Assembly (NCBI GenBank): GCA_025454255.1
Contig: JALOOU010000006.1
Location: forward strand, 1 to 64,000
Source: Desulfobacterales bacterium
GTDB lineage: Bacteria > Desulfobacterota > Desulfobacteria > Desulfobacterales > SpSt-501
Direction of reading: 5' to 3'
Length of the DNA: 64,000 nt
Shown in pieces: positions 41,502 to 48,861 of the stretch. The stretch's first letter is position 1; every line of letters begins with the position of its first letter. A model generated the notes under the pieces. That model searched no databases and was not told the DNA's origin. It saw only the letters and a program-made list of their open reading frames with translations. A program made the translations under genes and the position numbers.

Positions 41502-42185
41502 TCAGGCGGCGACCCGTTCGAAAACCAGCAGGCAGCGCTCGGCCGCAAGACCCGGGATGCGATAGCCCCGGCGGCTGAACCGCAGACGCGCCCCCCAGCC
41601 GCCGCTCTCCGCCGCATGCGCCAGGGCCCGGAGGTCGCCCGGGTCGGTCCGGCCGCGCATGGCCACGATGCGGCCCTCGGCTGCCAGCAGCGGCAGCGCC
41701 ATGCGCACGAAGGCCTCGACGGGCCCGAGCGCGCGGCTGACGATCACCCCGAAGCGGGGCGGACCGCCGGGGCGGGCGGCCAGCTCCTCCGCCCGGCTGT
41801 GGAGCGCGGTGATGCCCGTCAGCCCCAACTCGCGGATGACATGCTTGAGAAAGCTCGCCTTTTTGCGCGAGGCATCAATCAGGGTGGTGAGGCCGGCGGG
41901 CCGGACCAGGTGCAGGGGCAGACCCGGGAAGCCGCCGCCGGCGCCGATGTCGAGCAGAGCGGCCGCCGGCGGGATGAGGGGGGCCACGCTGAGCGAGTCG
42001 AGGTAGTGGCTGCGGGCCATCGCCTGCGGCTCGGTGACCGCGGTCAGGTTGGTCACCCGGTTCCATGCCAGCAGGAGCTGCGCGTGGCGGGCCATCTGCA
42101 CCGCTTGTGCGGCCGTCAGCGCGACGCCGAAGGCGCCGGCGCCGGCGGCGATCAGCGCCGCCCACTCCTCCGATCCGATGTCCAT
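41502..42185 (-). CDS. rsmG: 16S rRNA (guanine527-N7)-methyltransferase
   Basis: LLLAWNRVTNLTAVTEPQAMARSHYLDSLSVAPLIPPAAALLDIGAGGGFPGLPLHL. Confidence 0.95.
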   Translation of the reverse strand: MDIGSEEWAALIAAGAGAFGVALTAAQAVQMARHAQLLLAWNRVTNLTAVTEPQAMARSHYLDSLSVAPLIPPAAALLDIGAGGGFPGLPLHLVRPAGLTTLIDASRKKASFLKHVIRELGLTGITALHSRAEELAARPGGPPRFGVIVSRALGPVEAFVRMALPLLAAEGRIVAMRGRTDPGDLRALAHAAESGGWGARLRFSRRGYRIPGLAAERCLLVFERVAA

Positions 42186-42187
42186 CG

Positions 42188-44545
42188 CTACATGATGCAG
42201 ACGCGCCGCACCTCGGAGATATCGGTGATGCCCTTGAAGACTTTCATGATGCCGTCCTGCTTGAGGGTCGACATCCCCTGCTGCATGGCCGCGTTGAATA
42301 TCTCCTCGGTGTTGGCCTGCTTCTTGATCATCAGCTTTATGTCCGGGGTCCCCTCCATCAGCTCATGGATCCCCATGCGCCCGCGGTAGCCGGTGCCGGA
42401 GCAGCTCTCGCAGCCCACCGGCCGGTAGATCGCGAGGTTCTCGGCGTACTCGATCCCCGTGGCGGGGAACCACTGCCGGCCGTAGTCGTTTTGCAGCTCT
42501 TCGAACTCATCCCGGCCGAGGACGTTGGGCTTGCGGCAGTTCTCGCACAGCCGACGGGTCAGCCGCTGGGCCAGTACGCCGAGAAAGGCATCGGAGAAGT
42601 TCAAGGCGTTCAGGCCCATGTCGAGCAGGCGCGTGACGGTCTCCGGGGCGCTGTTGGTGTGCAGGGTGGAGAACACCAGGTGCCCGGTGAGCGAGGCCTC
42701 GATGCCGATGGAGGCGGTCTCCTCGTCGCGCATTTCACCGATCATGATGATGTCCGGGTCCGCCCGCAGGAACGCCCGCATCACCCGGGCGAAGTCCAGG
42801 CCGATCTTGGGCTTGACCTCGACCTGCCGCAGGCCCTGCTGGGTGATTTCGATGGGGTCCTCGGCAGTCCAGATCTTGACCCCCGGCTTGTTGATGTGGC
42901 CGAGCAGGCCGTGGAGGGTCGTCGTTTTGCCCGACCCGGTCGGCCCGACGGCCAGGATCAACCCGTAGGGGTTGACCACGATGCGCTTGATCACCTCCAG
43001 GTTGCGGGGGGTCAGACCCATCTCGTCGATTTTCATGGCGCCGGCCGAGGCGAGGATGCGCATCACCACGTCCTCGAACCCGCCGGCCGTGGGCAAGGTC
43101 GCCACGCGCATTTCGAAGCCCGGCACTCCCTTGCGGCGGAACTTGATCTTGCCGTCCTGCGGCAGGCGCCGCTCGGCGATGTCCAGATTCGACATGATCT
43201 TGATGCGGGAGACGATGCCGCGCACCATGGAGTTGGGGACCTTCATGTACTCCTGGCAGACCCCGTCCAGGCGGAAGCGGATCGAGGTCGACTTGCTCAC
43301 CACGGAGGGCTCGATGTGGATGTCGGAAGCGTTCTTGCGGTAGGCGGCGATGATGATCTGGTCGACCAGCTTGACGACCTGGCTGGAGCTCTCGTCCGCG
43401 TCGTCGACGACGACATCCTCCTTCTCCTCCTCGAAGGTGACGTCGATGATGTCCAGGTCCGGCATCTGTTCCTCCGCCGGGGCCTGCTCCCCGGCGCGCT
43501 CCTTGTCGAAGAAGTGGCGGATGAACTGCTGGATGTCCTCCCGGGTCGCCACCGAGAAGTTGATCTTGCCGGTTTTCATCAGGGCTTTGATGTTGTCGGT
43601 CTTGTTGAGGTTGCGCGGGTCGTCGACCAGCACCTCGATGCCCTCCTTGCTCCAGCTGATGGGAATCCACAGCTCGTTGAGCAGAAAGGCCATCTTCAGG
43701 TTGGCGAGCAGCTCCACCGGGGCGGGCAGGTTGGGGTCGAAGGAGCGGAACCGGCAGCCGTAGAAGAGGCTGAAGGATTTGGCGATGGCCTCCTTCCGGA
43801 TCTTGTGCTGTTCGATCAGCACGTGCTCGACGCTCTTGTTGATCTTCTTGGAGGTGCCGAAGGCCTTCTGCAGCTGGTCGGTCGTCACCAGCCTCTCCCG
43901 CAGCAGGTAGTCGTAGCGGGAGCCCGCGGCGAACGAGGCGGCCACGGAGGCGAGCTGCTTTTTGATCTCCGCGTCGGCGGGGTTGATCTCGTGCGCGGAC
44001 TTGTAGAGGTCGTGGGCCTGGTCGCGATGGTCGCGCTTTTCCATTTCCAGGCCGAGCAGGTAGCGGATCCGCGCGGCCTTGACCTTGTCGAAGCCCTCGC
44101 CCGGGATGAGGCCGATCAGCTCACCGACCGCGCTGGAGGGCGGATGCACCTTCAGCAGGCTCTCCGCCAAGAGCGGCATCAGCTTCTCCAGCGGGTAGGT
44201 CTCGCCGAACAGCTTGGCGAATTCGACCACCGCCTCGCTGTGCAGGCCCATCTCCTGGAAGGCGGTGGCGCTGTCCATGATCGCATTCACATCGCCCGCA
44301 GCGGAGATGGCCCCGCGGATAAAGGAGATGTCGCGCGCCGAGACACCGGGCAGGGAGGCGGCCTCCTCCTTGTCGATCTCCTGTCGCAGCAGCTGCATGC
44401 GGTCGCGGATGGTCTGCTGGACCTCGGGCTGGTGGGCCGGCACCAGCGGCAGGATTTTCTCGTAGATCGCCAGCGATTCGGCAAACAGCCCCATGGACCG
44501 GCAGACTTCCGCTTCGTTGATTCGAGTGTCGATGTCGGTTCTCAT
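42188..44545 (-). CDS. GspE/PilB-type secretion/pilus ATPase with extended TPR-like N-terminus
   Basis: LILAVGPTGSGKTTTLHGLLGHIN, EDPIEITQQGLRQVEV, CENCRKPN/CESCSGTGYRGRMGIHELME; TPR-like MGLFAESLAIYEKILPLVPAHQPEVQQ. Confidence 0.93.
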   Translation of the reverse strand: MRTDIDTRINEAEVCRSMGLFAESLAIYEKILPLVPAHQPEVQQTIRDRMQLLRQEIDKEEAASLPGVSARDISFIRGAISAAGDVNAIMDSATAFQEMGLHSEAVVEFAKLFGETYPLEKLMPLLAESLLKVHPPSSAVGELIGLIPGEGFDKVKAARIRYLLGLEMEKRDHRDQAHDLYKSAHEINPADAEIKKQLASVAASFAAGSRYDYLLRERLVTTDQLQKAFGTSKKINKSVEHVLIEQHKIRKEAIAKSFSLFYGCRFRSFDPNLPAPVELLANLKMAFLLNELWIPISWSKEGIEVLVDDPRNLNKTDNIKALMKTGKINFSVATREDIQQFIRHFFDKERAGEQAPAEEQMPDLDIIDVTFEEEKEDVVVDDADESSSQVVKLVDQIIIAAYRKNASDIHIEPSVVSKSTSIRFRLDGVCQEYMKVPNSMVRGIVSRIKIMSNLDIAERRLPQDGKIKFRRKGVPGFEMRVATLPTAGGFEDVVMRILASAGAMKIDEMGLTPRNLEVIKRIVVNPYGLILAVGPTGSGKTTTLHGLLGHINKPGVKIWTAEDPIEITQQGLRQVEVKPKIGLDFARVMRAFLRADPDIIMIGEMRDEETASIGIEASLTGHLVFSTLHTNSAPETVTRLLDMGLNALNFSDAFLGVLAQRLTRRLCENCRKPNVLGRDEFEELQNDYGRQWFPATGIEYAENLAIYRPVGCESCSGTGYRGRMGIHELMEGTPDIKLMIKKQANTEEIFNAAMQQGMSTLKQDGIMKVFKGITDISEVRRVCIM

Positions 44546-44589
44546 CTCGGTTCGACCCCTTGTGACGGGGGGGCTTGCCCCCCGGTGAT

Positions 44590-44937
44590 TCAGCGGCTGA
44601 AAAACCGCCGCAACCCCTTGGCGGGTTTCAGCCGCGCAAGCGACGGCATCAGGATGTCGCACGTGAGCCGGATCAGGGCGCCCGGCGCGATGCGGCCGGT
44701 GGCCACGATCAGCGTGCCCTCCGGCGCAGCGCGGATGTAGATCCGCCCCTTTTCGAACAACAGCTCCGCCTCCCTGAACCCGGCGACGGTGCCGAGCAGC
44801 GCCCGCCACCGTCCGACCGGCGGGCGGGACGCCGCGTTGATCGGAAACTCCTCGAACAGCAGATCGCCCGCGGCCGAAAAGAAGACAACCCCTTTGACCC
44901 CGTCGACCGCCAGCAGGTCTGCGAACACCTCGCGCAT
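44590..44937 (-). CDS. Small Roadblock/LC7-like protein
   Basis: MREVFADLLAVDGVKGVVFFSAAGDLLFEEFPINAASRPPVGRWRALLGTVAGFREAELLFEKGRIYIRAAPEGTLIVAT. Confidence 0.6.
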   Translation of the reverse strand: MREVFADLLAVDGVKGVVFFSAAGDLLFEEFPINAASRPPVGRWRALLGTVAGFREAELLFEKGRIYIRAAPEGTLIVATGRIAPGALIRLTCDILMPSLARLKPAKGLRRFFSR

Positions 44938-44951
44938 CCGGCCTCCGCCTC

Positions 44952-45959
44952 TCACTCCGCGAGCAGCCCCAGCAGCGCGTCCCGGGGGCATCCGGGGCTC
45001 ACGGCGACAACGGCGCCCTCCGCGGAGGCCAACAGGACGAGGTTGCGGCCATCGTCCTTGACGACATAGCCCAACGCCAAAGGGCCCAGGTTCAAGCGTT
45101 CGCCGCAGGCCGAGATGCGTTTGATCCGCCCGCTCCAATCCCGGCCTTGGATCAGATCCTCGACCTGGCAATGAGCGCCCAGCGCGGATTGGACCCTCGC
45201 CCGCAGCCGCTCAAGGGGCCTCTCTTCCGCCGGCGGCGGGGCGGGCGCCCCGCCCGGGGCGGCGGCGGCCTCATCCTTGCGGCGCATGGCTTCCAAGATG
45301 AGCTGGTTCAGCTCCGGCCGGATCCGCCTTTCCCGGACCGCACAGCCGTTTTGAATCGAGAGGCTGACGTCCTCCCAGCCCACCATCTTCAAGGCGGCGG
45401 CCGCGCCCTTGACCTCGCCTAAGCGGGCATCGACCAGCCCCCCCTCCACGAAGAACAAAACCCCCCTCTCCCCGGAGGCGCGGTGGGCCAGCCGGATCGT
45501 GCAGGTCTTCTGCTCCATCTCGATCAGCTGCAGAAACATGGCGGTGGAGACGTTGTGCAGGCTGCCGCCCTCGGCCTGCCGTTGCAGCAGGTCCAGAATC
45601 TGCTGCGCGAGGACATCGATCCCGAAGGGCTTGACGATGAACCCGACCGCCCCTGCGCGGCGGACCATGCTCTCGATGCCGGGCGCGTGGAACCCTGTCA
45701 TGACGATGACCGGTATGTCCGGGTAGCCGTCCATGACGGCCGCCAGCAACTCGAACCCATCCATGCGCGGCATCTTGAGGTCGGTCACCACGAGCGCAAC
45801 CTCCTGGCGCTGGATGCACCCCAACGCCTCGGCGCCGTCTGCGGCCGTCAGCACTCCGAAGGCGTGGGCATAGCCCGAGAAGCCCTCCTGCAGCAGCTGC
45901 AGCATCGCGCCATCGTCATCCACCAGAAGGACCTTCTTGACCACGGTTGCGCCCACCAT
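44952..45959 (-). CDS. Response regulator with receiver and DUF4388/PATAN-like domain
   Basis: VKKVLLVDDDGAMLQLLQEGFSG..LVVTDLKMPRMDGFELL..FIVKPF; LHNVSTAMFLQLIEMEQKTCTIRLAHRASGERGVLFFVEGGLVDARLGEVKGAAAALKMVGWEDV. Confidence 0.85.
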   Translation of the reverse strand: MVGATVVKKVLLVDDDGAMLQLLQEGFSGYAHAFGVLTAADGAEALGCIQRQEVALVVTDLKMPRMDGFELLAAVMDGYPDIPVIVMTGFHAPGIESMVRRAGAVGFIVKPFGIDVLAQQILDLLQRQAEGGSLHNVSTAMFLQLIEMEQKTCTIRLAHRASGERGVLFFVEGGLVDARLGEVKGAAAALKMVGWEDVSLSIQNGCAVRERRIRPELNQLILEAMRRKDEAAAAPGGAPAPPPAEERPLERLRARVQSALGAHCQVEDLIQGRDWSGRIKRISACGERLNLGPLALGYVVKDDGRNLVLLASAEGAVVAVSPGCPRDALLGLLAE

Positions 45960-46111
45960 CGGTTGGAACTGGGTTCACGAGCCCGTTTGACGGCTGGGGG
46001 CCGAGGCCCGGGCGGGGGATCGCAGGCCGCTCCGCGGCGGTGAAACCGCTCCCGGCGGAAACCGCCGCAGCCGCGTGTCGTCGAAGCGGCGCGAACCTCG
46101 ACCCGCGTGCC

Positions 46112-47152
46112 CTACCGCCTCCGGCCGCCGCCTTGCACGGGCCGGGCCGGCCGCAGCGTTCCCAGCACCGCCGTGAGCGCCAGTGCGGCCGCCGTGCCGG
46201 CCAGCAGGCCCGCCGCGCTCACACCCATCTCCCGGATCAGATCGGCCGCCTCCCGCTGCAGGCGGACCACCGGCCCGGCAAGCCCCTCCACCGGCCCCGC
46301 CGCCGCCAGCGCATAGCCCGTGCCCACCACCGGTCGGCAGGCCACCGCCTGGTGCTCCCATCTGCCGTCGGCGGCCGGCACCCGGTACCGGCCGGATGCC
46401 GGCGCGCCACCCGCCGCGCCGGTGAGCAGTGCGAAGACCTCCGGAAAGTCGGGCCCCACCTGCACGGCCAGCGCACGCAGGTCCGCACCGGTCAGGCCCG
46501 GATCGGAGTGCAGCCAAATCCGCCACACGCCGTCCGAATCGGACGGCCCGTACAGCAGGGCCCACGCGGCGGCGCCGGCCTCCGGCGCCACTATGGCGCG
46601 CAGCTCCGGGCGGCCGGCCAGCTCGCGGCGGTCGAGGTCCGGATGCGCGGACAGCTGACGCTGGAGCGCATCGGCCGCGGCGGCGACCCGCATCTCAATC
46701 CGCTGCCGGGCCAGTTCATGGGCAGCCGCGCGGCCGAGCCCTTCGAGCTCCTCCAGCAGCTCCTGCGAGCGCACCTGGAAAAAGCCGGCGGCTACGGCGA
46801 TGGCCGCCGCCATGACCCAGCCGAACACGGCCAGCAGCCCGAGCCTGCGGTCCGGCGCAGCGTCGGGCGGCAGCGGCACGTCGGCAAGCTCCTCCGCTGC
46901 CGCGGGCGGCGGCGCCGGCCAGGGGCGGGTCTCGACCTGCGCGAGCCCCCTCGTCTTGGCCACCACGATGCGATGCCCGCAGTCGCGGCAGGTGAACACG
47001 GCCGCGGATCCCCGGATTTTCGACGGCAACACGCGGTACTTGCGGCCGCATTCCTCGCAGATGACGATCGGGCGGATTTCCGTCGTCGCCGCGGCGGGGT
47101 CGCACGGGGGCCGCGCCGCCGAGGGGTGCTCAGCGGGGCGTGGGGTGCTCAT
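46112..47152 (-). CDS. Zinc-ribbon (MJ0042-like) membrane protein with putative extracytoplasmic sensory domain
   Basis: IVICEECGRKYRVLPSKIRGSAAVFTCRDCGHRI; TM LGLLAVFGWVMAAAIAVAAGF; second TM near the C-terminus. Confidence 0.75.
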   Translation of the reverse strand: MSTPRPAEHPSAARPPCDPAAATTEIRPIVICEECGRKYRVLPSKIRGSAAVFTCRDCGHRIVVAKTRGLAQVETRPWPAPPPAAAEELADVPLPPDAAPDRRLGLLAVFGWVMAAAIAVAAGFFQVRSQELLEELEGLGRAAAHELARQRIEMRVAAAADALQRQLSAHPDLDRRELAGRPELRAIVAPEAGAAAWALLYGPSDSDGVWRIWLHSDPGLTGADLRALAVQVGPDFPEVFALLTGAAGGAPASGRYRVPAADGRWEHQAVACRPVVGTGYALAAAGPVEGLAGPVVRLQREAADLIREMGVSAAGLLAGTAAALALTAVLGTLRPARPVQGGGRRR

Positions 47153-47194
47153 GGGGCTCCTTTCGCATTCGACGAAGCCGCCCCCCCGGGATCG

Positions 47195-47827
47195 TTACCT
47201 GCGCCGGGTGGCGGCCCGCAGCTCCTCCCTGAGACGGTTGAGCTCCGCGTGGATGAAGAGTTTGAGCTCGTGCACCGCCTGCGCCAGGATTTCCGGCGAG
47301 ACCCCCGCGGAGGCGGGGGGCGCCTTCGGCAGAGCGCTCGTTGCGGCTACCGGAGCCCGTTCGGGTTTGCGGCGCTGGATGATCTTCTCGCGCAGCTGCT
47401 GGTAGCCGGCCATCTCCGTTTGGAGCAGCTTGCGCTTCAGGTTCTCCGGCATGGCCGGCGTGGAGACGACCTCATCGAGCCGGGCGAACACCGAGTTGAG
47501 CACGGTAAAGGTGCTCGGATGCACCTGGCTGCGGCTGGTCTTGATGTAGGCGCCGAGCGCCTCCAGGATCTGCAAAAACCGGCTGGCCACCGCGTCGCGC
47601 CGATAGGCCGCCTGCAGCTGCCGGATCTGCACCAGGAAGCTCGCCAGCGCATCGGCGGTGATTTCCCAATCGATGGAGAGAACCGTCTTCTTCAACTCCT
47701 CGAGGGGCGGGGCGGCGGCCGGCTTCGGGGCAATGGGCGCTACCGGGGCCTCGGTCTCCCGAAACAGCTCATCCAGGCGGTTCTCCAGTTCGGAGTCGAG
47801 CTTGCGGAACTTGGATGCAGAGTCCAC
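47195..47827 (-). CDS. Conserved hypothetical protein, helical
   Basis: ORF lying between the MglA-like GTPase and zinc-ribbon genes, same strand; no domain recognised. Confidence 0.75.
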   Translation of the reverse strand: MDSASKFRKLDSELENRLDELFRETEAPVAPIAPKPAAAPPLEELKKTVLSIDWEITADALASFLVQIRQLQAAYRRDAVASRFLQILEALGAYIKTSRSQVHPSTFTVLNSVFARLDEVVSTPAMPENLKRKLLQTEMAGYQQLREKIIQRRKPERAPVAATSALPKAPPASAGVSPEILAQAVHELKLFIHAELNRLREELRAATRRR

Positions 47828-47838
47828 GGGGCGGCCTC

Positions 47839-48444
47839 CTATAGAAATTCTTTTCTGACGGCGGCGACGCTCAGGGAGATGATCTTCTTGAGCGTCGCCA
47901 CCACGTTGGTGCCCCTGGAGGCGCTGGCCGGAAAATGAGGCGCCCTCAGCTCCCGGTTGAGATCGTGCTCCAGCACCTCCGTGCCCAGCAGGGGGATCCC
48001 CTGCTCCGCCAAATCCATCTTGTTGTACTGCATCACCAGCGGCAGGGCGGCGAGGTTTTTCTTGTAGATCGCCAGGTTTTCCTGGAGATTCCGCAGTGCC
48101 TGGATATTTTTCTCGCGCCGCACGGTCATGGCGTCGGCGACGAACACCACCCCGTCCACCCCGCGCAGCACCAGCCGGCGGGTGGCGTTGTATTTGACCT
48201 GGCCGGGCACCGTGTAGATCTGGATCTTGATGTGGTAGCCGTTGATCAGCCCGATGTCGAAGGGCAGAAAATCAAAAAAGAGCGTGCGGTCCCCGTGCGT
48301 CTTGATGGTCACCATTTCGGCCTGGATCCGCTGTTGGAGCCTGCGGTAGATGTACTCCAGGTTCGTCGTCTTGCCGCCGCGGCCGGGGCCGTAATAGACG
48401 ATCTTGACTTGGATCACCTTGGATTTGAGATTGATGAATGCCAT
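47839..48444 (-). CDS. mglA: MglA-type small Ras-like GTPase
   Basis: MAFINLKSKVIQVKIVYYGPGRGGKTTNLEYIYRRL; DRTLFFDFLPFDIG; TVPGQVKYNATRRLVLRGVDGVVFVAD; MQYNKMDL. Confidence 0.95.
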   Translation of the reverse strand: MAFINLKSKVIQVKIVYYGPGRGGKTTNLEYIYRRLQQRIQAEMVTIKTHGDRTLFFDFLPFDIGLINGYHIKIQIYTVPGQVKYNATRRLVLRGVDGVVFVADAMTVRREKNIQALRNLQENLAIYKKNLAALPLVMQYNKMDLAEQGIPLLGTEVLEHDLNRELRAPHFPASASRGTNVVATLKKIISLSVAAVRKEFL

Positions 48445-48450
48445 TGGAGC

Positions 48451-48861
48451 TCATGAGGCGGACGCGGCCAGCGGTTCCAGGATTTTTTTCAGCCGATCGA
48501 CCGACTCCGCAACTTTCAGGCGCAGAAACCCAAGGGAGATGTCGTTGCCGAAGATCGTGATCAAAAGGAATTCGGTGGTGATCTTGTTGAAGTGGATGTT
48601 CTCCTTGGTGCCCTTGTGAAACAGCAGCGAAAACTCGTTTTCGCCGATGATTTTGGCCATGGCGCTCACGGCGCCGAAATTTCCGGCCGCCAGGGCTGCC
48701 AGCGAGTAGATGTCATGCTGCTTTTCGCCGTTGTCGAGGTTGGTCACGATGTTGCCGGCCATGTCGATCAGGAAAACGCAGCGCACTCCGTTGTCAACCA
48801 GCTCGGTTTTGAGAATCTCCTCAATCCGGTCCAGCTGTCTTTGATCAAGCGTGTATGACAC
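48451..48861 (-). CDS. Roadblock/LC7 (MglB-like) protein, GTG start
   Basis: (V)SYTLDQRQLDRIEEILKTELVDNGVRCVFLIDMAGNIVTNLDNGEKQHDIYSLAALAAGNFGAVSAMAKIIGENEFSLLFHKG. Confidence 0.88.
   Translation of the reverse strand: MSYTLDQRQLDRIEEILKTELVDNGVRCVFLIDMAGNIVTNLDNGEKQHDIYSLAALAAGNFGAVSAMAKIIGENEFSLLFHKGTKENIHFNKITTEFLLITIFGNDISLGFLRLKVAESVDRLKKILEPLAASAS

Follow-up and report, generated by a model that had tools for sequence, protein, structure and literature searches.

A conserved mglA/TPR-PilB gene cluster in Desulfobacterota: a putative MglA/MglB switch for a type IV pilus motor

The seven-gene block described here probably encodes an MglA/MglB switch that has the extension motor of a type IVa pilus as its dedicated target, with a PATAN response regulator as second input. 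The motor is a PilB-type ATPase that carries an additional N-terminal TPR-like region (here TPR-PilB). The block lies in the window, i.e. the whole 64,000-nucleotide stretch of Desulfobacterales DNA that was analysed, and was initially seen as seven co-directional genes; all of these open reading frames are present as predicted, tightly packed on the minus strand from 48861 to 42188 (Table 1). Intergenic gaps are, in order, 6, 11, 42, 152, 14 and 44 bases, and because they are short, a single transcript for the seven genes is likely. The housekeeping gene rsmG starts 2 bases downstream of the TPR-PilB gene and is probably co-transcribed with it; rsmG also follows the ATPase gene in a locus from another family (L047).

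Table 1. Genes of the cluster in order of transcription, followed by rsmG (matches with E-values where given)
Gene product	Coordinates	Strand	Basis
MglB-like; Roadblock/LC7 protein, predicted MglA GAP, GTG start	48451..48861	-	Pfam Robl_LC7 3e-6; PDB match
MglA-like; small Ras-like GTPase, Group 1 MglA by motifs	47839..48444	-	PDB matches and motifs
Conserved helical protein, third gene of the mglB-mglA triad	47195..47827	-	Position and predicted fold
MJ0042 zinc-ribbon membrane protein, shortened Cache/HAMP-type sensor	46112..47152	-	Pfam Zn_ribbon_4 1e-7
Response regulator, REC + DUF4388/PATAN	44952..45959	-	Response_reg 5e-22; DUF4388 8e-13
Second Roadblock protein, predicted MglC-like fold	44590..44937	-	AlphaFold and Foldseek
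TPR-PilB; TPR-like region, MshEN-like domain, PilB-type T2SSE ATPase	42188..44545	-	T2SSE 2e-118; MshEN 8e-13
rsmG (gidB), housekeeping	41502..42185	-	GidB 3.5e-40

The gene neighbourhood is phylogenetically conserved. All six congeners carry the block (G006 at a contig end), as do 14 other families of the order and, among named genomes, uncultured Desulfobacterales (L087, L089, L091, L092, L095, L096, L100, L127 and L150). A draw of 247 genomes from the phylum yielded 20 TPR-PilBs in 19 genomes outside the order, and 19 of these proteins had enough flanking sequence to be evaluated; L186 lies at a contig edge. An mglA gene lies within about 10 kb of 16 of the 19; the others are those of L174 and of L171 and L188, the latter two with a REC-type gene next to that of the ATPase. 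Family f93 (L169, L173, L175) has the same content as the window in a different gene order, and L176 to L185 share a core consisting of mglB, mglA, the helical protein and TPR-PilB, where in L176, L177 and L179 it was position and an L(E/D)WE motif, not the profile, that identified the third gene. The mglB-mglA-helical triad also occurs in Desulfobulbales with no ATPase gene nearby. G048 is a reduced case of the cluster; in this genome, which is 99% complete, TPR-PilB is the sole recognised PilB-type ATPase besides GspE, one divergent ATPase and PilT/U.

Could the clustering reflect co-inheritance or co-expression without a common pathway? The adjacent and probably co-transcribed housekeeping gene speaks for this, but many families retain the set despite changes in gene order, and the TPR form of PilB is at its centre, which makes this explanation highly improbable. 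By the synteny counts, the clustering exceeds chance. An absence of conserved clustering, which would have spoken against the original prediction, is clearly contradicted by the six congeners, the 14 families and the 16 of 19 proteins elsewhere. The proposal of an uncharacterised spatial-control system is thereby well supported, and it is the best reading of a conserved cluster of MglA, MglB, Roadblock, PATAN and motor genes.

The MglB-like, MglA-like and REC-DUF4388/PATAN assignments are all confirmed by Pfam or PDB matches. The best PDB match of the first is Myxococcus MglB (3e-21), and those of the GTPase are the MglA proteins of Thermus and Myxococcus (E about 1e-50). The GTPase carries the motifs GPGRGGKT, GDRT (the arginine finger), TVPGQ and NKMD. 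According to PMC4316618, Group 1 MglA proteins are marked by a TVPGQ G3 motif and by an intrinsic arginine finger that adjoins the G2 threonine. Both R53-T54 and TVPGQ are invariant in 15 MglA orthologues, the window copy included, and the coupled mglB, expected within four genes for Group 1, ends 6 bases before mglA. By its motifs, the window GTPase is a Group 1 MglA. In nearly every locus compared, mglB precedes mglA. The response regulator has a TDLKMP phospho-acceptor motif and KPF.

The second Roadblock-like protein of the original prediction has no Pfam or NCBIfam match. Its predicted structure nevertheless bears out the label: an AlphaFold model built from 19 orthologues (pLDDT 86) displays the Roadblock order of elements, and the top Foldseek match in the PDB is Myxococcus MglC (7ct3, E 2e-5, prob 1.00), followed by MglB. 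The protein is thus predicted to have a Roadblock fold closest to MglC, the MglB-binding Roadblock protein of the Myxococcus polarity module (PMC7949163). The third-gene product is all-helical (model pLDDT 83), and its place in the cluster is kept even where identity falls to 23-30%, while its sequence is not conserved, with 23-65% identity among orthologues. A weak Foldseek match relates its core to CheA P1/HPt (E 0.015), and no invariant histidine occurs across 19 orthologues, nor was a phospho-histidine recognised. It may be a phospho-dead HPt-like scaffold, which we take as no more than a lead. Of the Zn-ribbon sensor that was also predicted, the MJ0042-type zinc ribbon stands; its role as a constant part of the system does not. 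The gene was not detected in four congeners and the window copy is shortened, with no HAMP domain found in it, so that a core sensor is rejected; the protein is here a truncated, variable sensor. The relative in L047 has a HAMP domain (4e-10) and a weak, sub-threshold Cache match.

Prominent among the cluster genes is the ATPase. The original label of a PilB-like motor holds, as T2SSE and MshEN domains are present and PilBs match best, and to these is added a TPR-like region at the N-terminus (residues about 1-205), assigned from TPR homology. The Walker A sequence is GPTGSGKTTT. Among equivalog models PilB scores best, ahead of GspE, and the best PDB matches are solved PilBs, again ahead of GspE. 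The protein scores 510 bits against a cut-off of 675.65 bits for the NCBIfam PilB model (TIGR02538) and is therefore named PilB-type, not a PilB equivalog; it is also under the GspE equivalog cut-off. A T2SS GspE identity was rejected, as the scores favour PilB and a separate GspF is encoded elsewhere in the genome, next to pseudopilins.

The window's contig bears no gene for a pilin, PilC/GspF or secretin, as originally noted for the vicinity, and the TPR-PilB gene adjoins neither pilC nor any pil operon. Pilus parts are, however, scattered elsewhere in the genome, which is 87% complete. A solitary pilC is on contig C22, and C146 carries a strong PilM match and a secretin (a pilM-pilQ locus) beside a sensor kinase and a sigma-54-type regulator, both judged from sequence. 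PilT and PilU are on C52, GspF and pseudopilins on C116, and there are 17 pilin-type signal matches in the genome. The T2SSE ATPases are those of the window, a TPR-PilB paralogue on C70, an MshE-like protein on C151, two on C52 and a fragment on C95; no PilB adjoins PilC or PilQ in this genome. The platform proteins are two, the solitary PilC and the GspF beside pseudopilins. G034 (97% complete) also has two platform proteins, and its recognised ATPases are GspE, two TPR-PilBs and PilT/U. By elimination among ATPases against platform proteins, in which family searches served to exclude other PilBs, at least one TPR-PilB (window or C70) would serve PilC. We infer that the window TPR-PilB is probably the extension motor of the scattered type IV pilus, although the C70 paralogue could be the main PilB, which counts against this best explanation. 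The hint that the motor might work without a type IV pilus is not supported, given a PilB-type ATPase in a genome that holds pilC, pilM-pilQ, pilT/pilU and the pilin-type signals.

TPR-PilB might still drive a device other than a type IVa pilus (a pseudopilus, adhesin secretion or a sensory ATPase) that the polarity module positions. Scores under both the PilB and GspE equivalog cut-offs and the absence of a platform protein encoded nearby are compatible with such a device. That PilB matches exceed GspE matches, that only the two platform proteins named above are found in the genome, and that the recognised extension-type ATPases of G034 are GspE and the two TPR-PilBs all point the other way, and we consider it quite unlikely.

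How would MglA act on the motor? The TPR region of the ATPase and mglA tend to occur together. A tree of 55 ATPases, which came from a quick search and has several long branches, sets the TPR-PilBs apart from a clade with seven other ATPases. These sister proteins are without this TPR region, and GAF takes its place in the one tested with Pfam; mglA is nearby in one of the seven. In the order, most genomes with the cluster seem to encode a further PilB-type ATPase that matches only residues 200-786; the tree and Pfam put such proteins in a separate clade and they were rejected as orthologues. A profile of the TPR region finds more than 20 stand-alone proteins of about 300 residues directly upstream of a second mglA type, which is then followed by a gene for a PATAN plus cyclic-nucleotide-binding protein. 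This search set is biased toward mglA neighbourhoods, as its loci were fetched by MglA. Repeats of the TPR type also match one another readily, so that homologous TPR regions are no proof of a common partner.

SgmX, a protein of 14 TPRs, is recruited by MglA-GTP in Myxococcus and is required there for PilB recruitment (PMC11580455). A specific proposal, put forward tentatively and with somewhat less than even confidence, is that TPR-PilB is itself the MglA-GTP effector, an SgmX-like module fused to PilB that also receives PATAN-REC and pseudo-HPt input, in much of Desulfobacterota. MglA might instead be linked to the motor only via the response regulator, with the TPR region binding PATAN-REC and MglA polarising a different protein; this would still be type IV pilus control. 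PATAN regulators interact with PilB1 in Synechocystis (PMC7690835, PMC12288463), only the last three of the 14 SgmX TPRs bind MglA while the N-terminal eight activate motility, and the C70 paralogue keeps its TPR region beside a REC-PAS gene with no mglA. These points suit a link through the regulator. The phylum-wide core, however, often has no PATAN gene in between (e.g. L178, L182 and L184), mglA directly precedes TPR-PilB in G048 and L143, and a stand-alone TPR relative adjoins the second mglA, so that this route appears rather unlikely.

For the preferred MglA/MglB switch, the most economical view has MglA-GTP and PATAN-REC meet at TPR-PilB, and here we infer every contact. MglA-GTP would recruit or activate TPR-PilB at a single site, probably a cell pole, and might do so by binding the N-terminal TPR region directly; control would run from the switch to the motor. 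MglB, as GAP, would time MglA-GTP, and together with the MglC-like protein it would set the nucleotide state of MglA. The MglC-like Roadblock and the helical protein are perhaps MglB partners or a scaffold. The PATAN response regulator would be a second, phosphorylation-dependent input on TPR-PilB, as for PilB1 in Synechocystis. Besides the C70 paralogue and the easy matching of TPR-type repeats, points that weigh against this explanation are the further PilB-type ATPase in most cluster-bearing genomes, the score below the NCBIfam PilB cut-off and the Desulfobulbales triads with no ATPase gene close by.

The closest known system is that of Myxococcus xanthus (MglA, MglB, MglC, RomR, SgmX and PilB), with which the cluster shares a Group 1 MglA, an MglB, an MglC-like Roadblock, a response regulator, TPRs and a PilB. 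In the window, however, all genes are in one cluster, PilB and the TPR region form one fusion protein, a REC-PATAN protein takes the place of the response regulator, and none of the genes was identified as RomR, RomX or FrzS; the mglA of Myxococcus lies apart from the genes for its response-regulator partners (PMC4316618). One polypeptide would thus cover the job of a separate SgmX plus PilB. The Synechocystis PATAN-REC regulators PixE, PixG and LsiR, which act on PilB1, present the same pairing of a REC + PATAN regulator with a PilB motor. That pathway, as reviewed, is without MglA/MglB, and the window has no adjoining photoreceptor or histidine kinase gene. The same paper, PMC4316618 (Wuichet and Sogaard-Andersen, 2014, citing Makarova, 2006), places some mglA genes of Groups 1 and 5, as well as some mglB genes, near PATAN genes and describes Group 1 neighbourhoods as otherwise widely variable; its passages on these loci make no mention of PilB, TPR-PilB, an MglC-like gene or a conserved cluster. 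No description of a conserved mglA/PilB cluster or of TPR-PilB was found in the open-access literature searched, and we regard the mglA/TPR-PilB cluster as a form of the MglA polarity module.

The route by which MglA and SgmX deliver PilB to the pilus machine is still a question for Myxococcus, where direct SgmX-PilB or SgmX-PilM contacts were not detected (PMC11580455). With a natural TPR-PilB fusion whose gene is locked to mglA, it could be tested on two purified proteins. The Ras-like switch known from slime bacteria is here probably wired straight to the motor, perhaps via the TPR domain. The cluster also unites on one motor two steering systems that have been studied separately, MglA/MglB of Myxococcus and PATAN-REC of cyanobacteria, and it suggests a regulated, perhaps polar, pilus activity in relatives of sulfate reducers.

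An MshEN-like domain before the T2SSE domain is also a property of the c-di-GMP-activated extension ATPases of the MshE/PilB2 type. The c-di-GMP motif of the window protein differs in that it looks degenerate, R/K-Y/F-D (RYD/KYD where matched) replacing RLG, and the NCBIfam motif model NF053729 gives 21.5 bits against a cut-off of 38; control by c-di-GMP through MshEN was rejected on account of this degenerate motif. In several other families a PilZ protein gene follows the ATPase gene, and c-di-GMP could therefore act there through PilZ.

In several other families the ATPase gene is followed directly by a gene for a small protein (see table), and the one tested among these small proteins, from L055, has a PilZ domain. 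It is possible that this small PilZ-type protein constitutes a c-di-GMP input there; the window, in contrast, lacks such a candidate. In three triad-only loci, two from Desulfobulbales (L098 and L126) and L129, the product of the third gene is long (568-860 aa) and appears to contain the helical domain in tandem copies.

Coordinates of the features (G000, the window's own genome; C, its contigs; L, fetched loci)
Feature	Locus	Coordinates
Small-protein gene 3' of ATPase	L055	2841-3308
Small-protein gene 3' of ATPase	L059	4122-4589
Small-protein gene 3' of ATPase	L062	11163-11672
Long third gene	L098	10578-13004
Long third gene	L126	10889-13471
Long third gene	L129	10616-12322
TPR-PilB paralogue	L037	G000:C70:106133-108502
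Stand-alone TPR-region relative	L167	G000:C31:52343-52927
Second-kind mglA	L079	G000:C169:5760-6356
Sensor-adjoining gene	L149	6366-8750
Sensor-adjoining gene	L162	15740-16813
Zinc ribbon-receiver fusion	L039	G000:C52, 12035-12679

In the window's own genome there is also a paralogue of TPR-PilB, with a REC-PAS gene after it. The pair is kept in congeners, and in G009 (L052) MCP, CheW-like and CheA-like genes come next. The same genome encodes a stand-alone protein that strongly resembles TPR-PilB in its TPR region (1e-32); no mglA is present around its gene in the fetched stretch.

An mglA of a second kind, found in this genome and likewise in L134, L059 and others, is followed by a gene for a single protein that joins DUF4388 to a cyclic-nucleotide-binding part and by one for a short protein; in many cases a stand-alone TPR protein is encoded upstream. 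This is another conserved MglA locus, separate from the window's cluster.

Genes adjoining the cluster's Cache-type sensor in Ca. Desulfofervidaceae and Desulfohalobiaceae (L149 and L162) look, from sequence, as if they encode periplasmic substrate-binding proteins. A zinc ribbon of the same MJ0042 type as in the cluster's zinc-ribbon protein is fused to a weak receiver domain 3' of pilT/pilU in the window's own genome.
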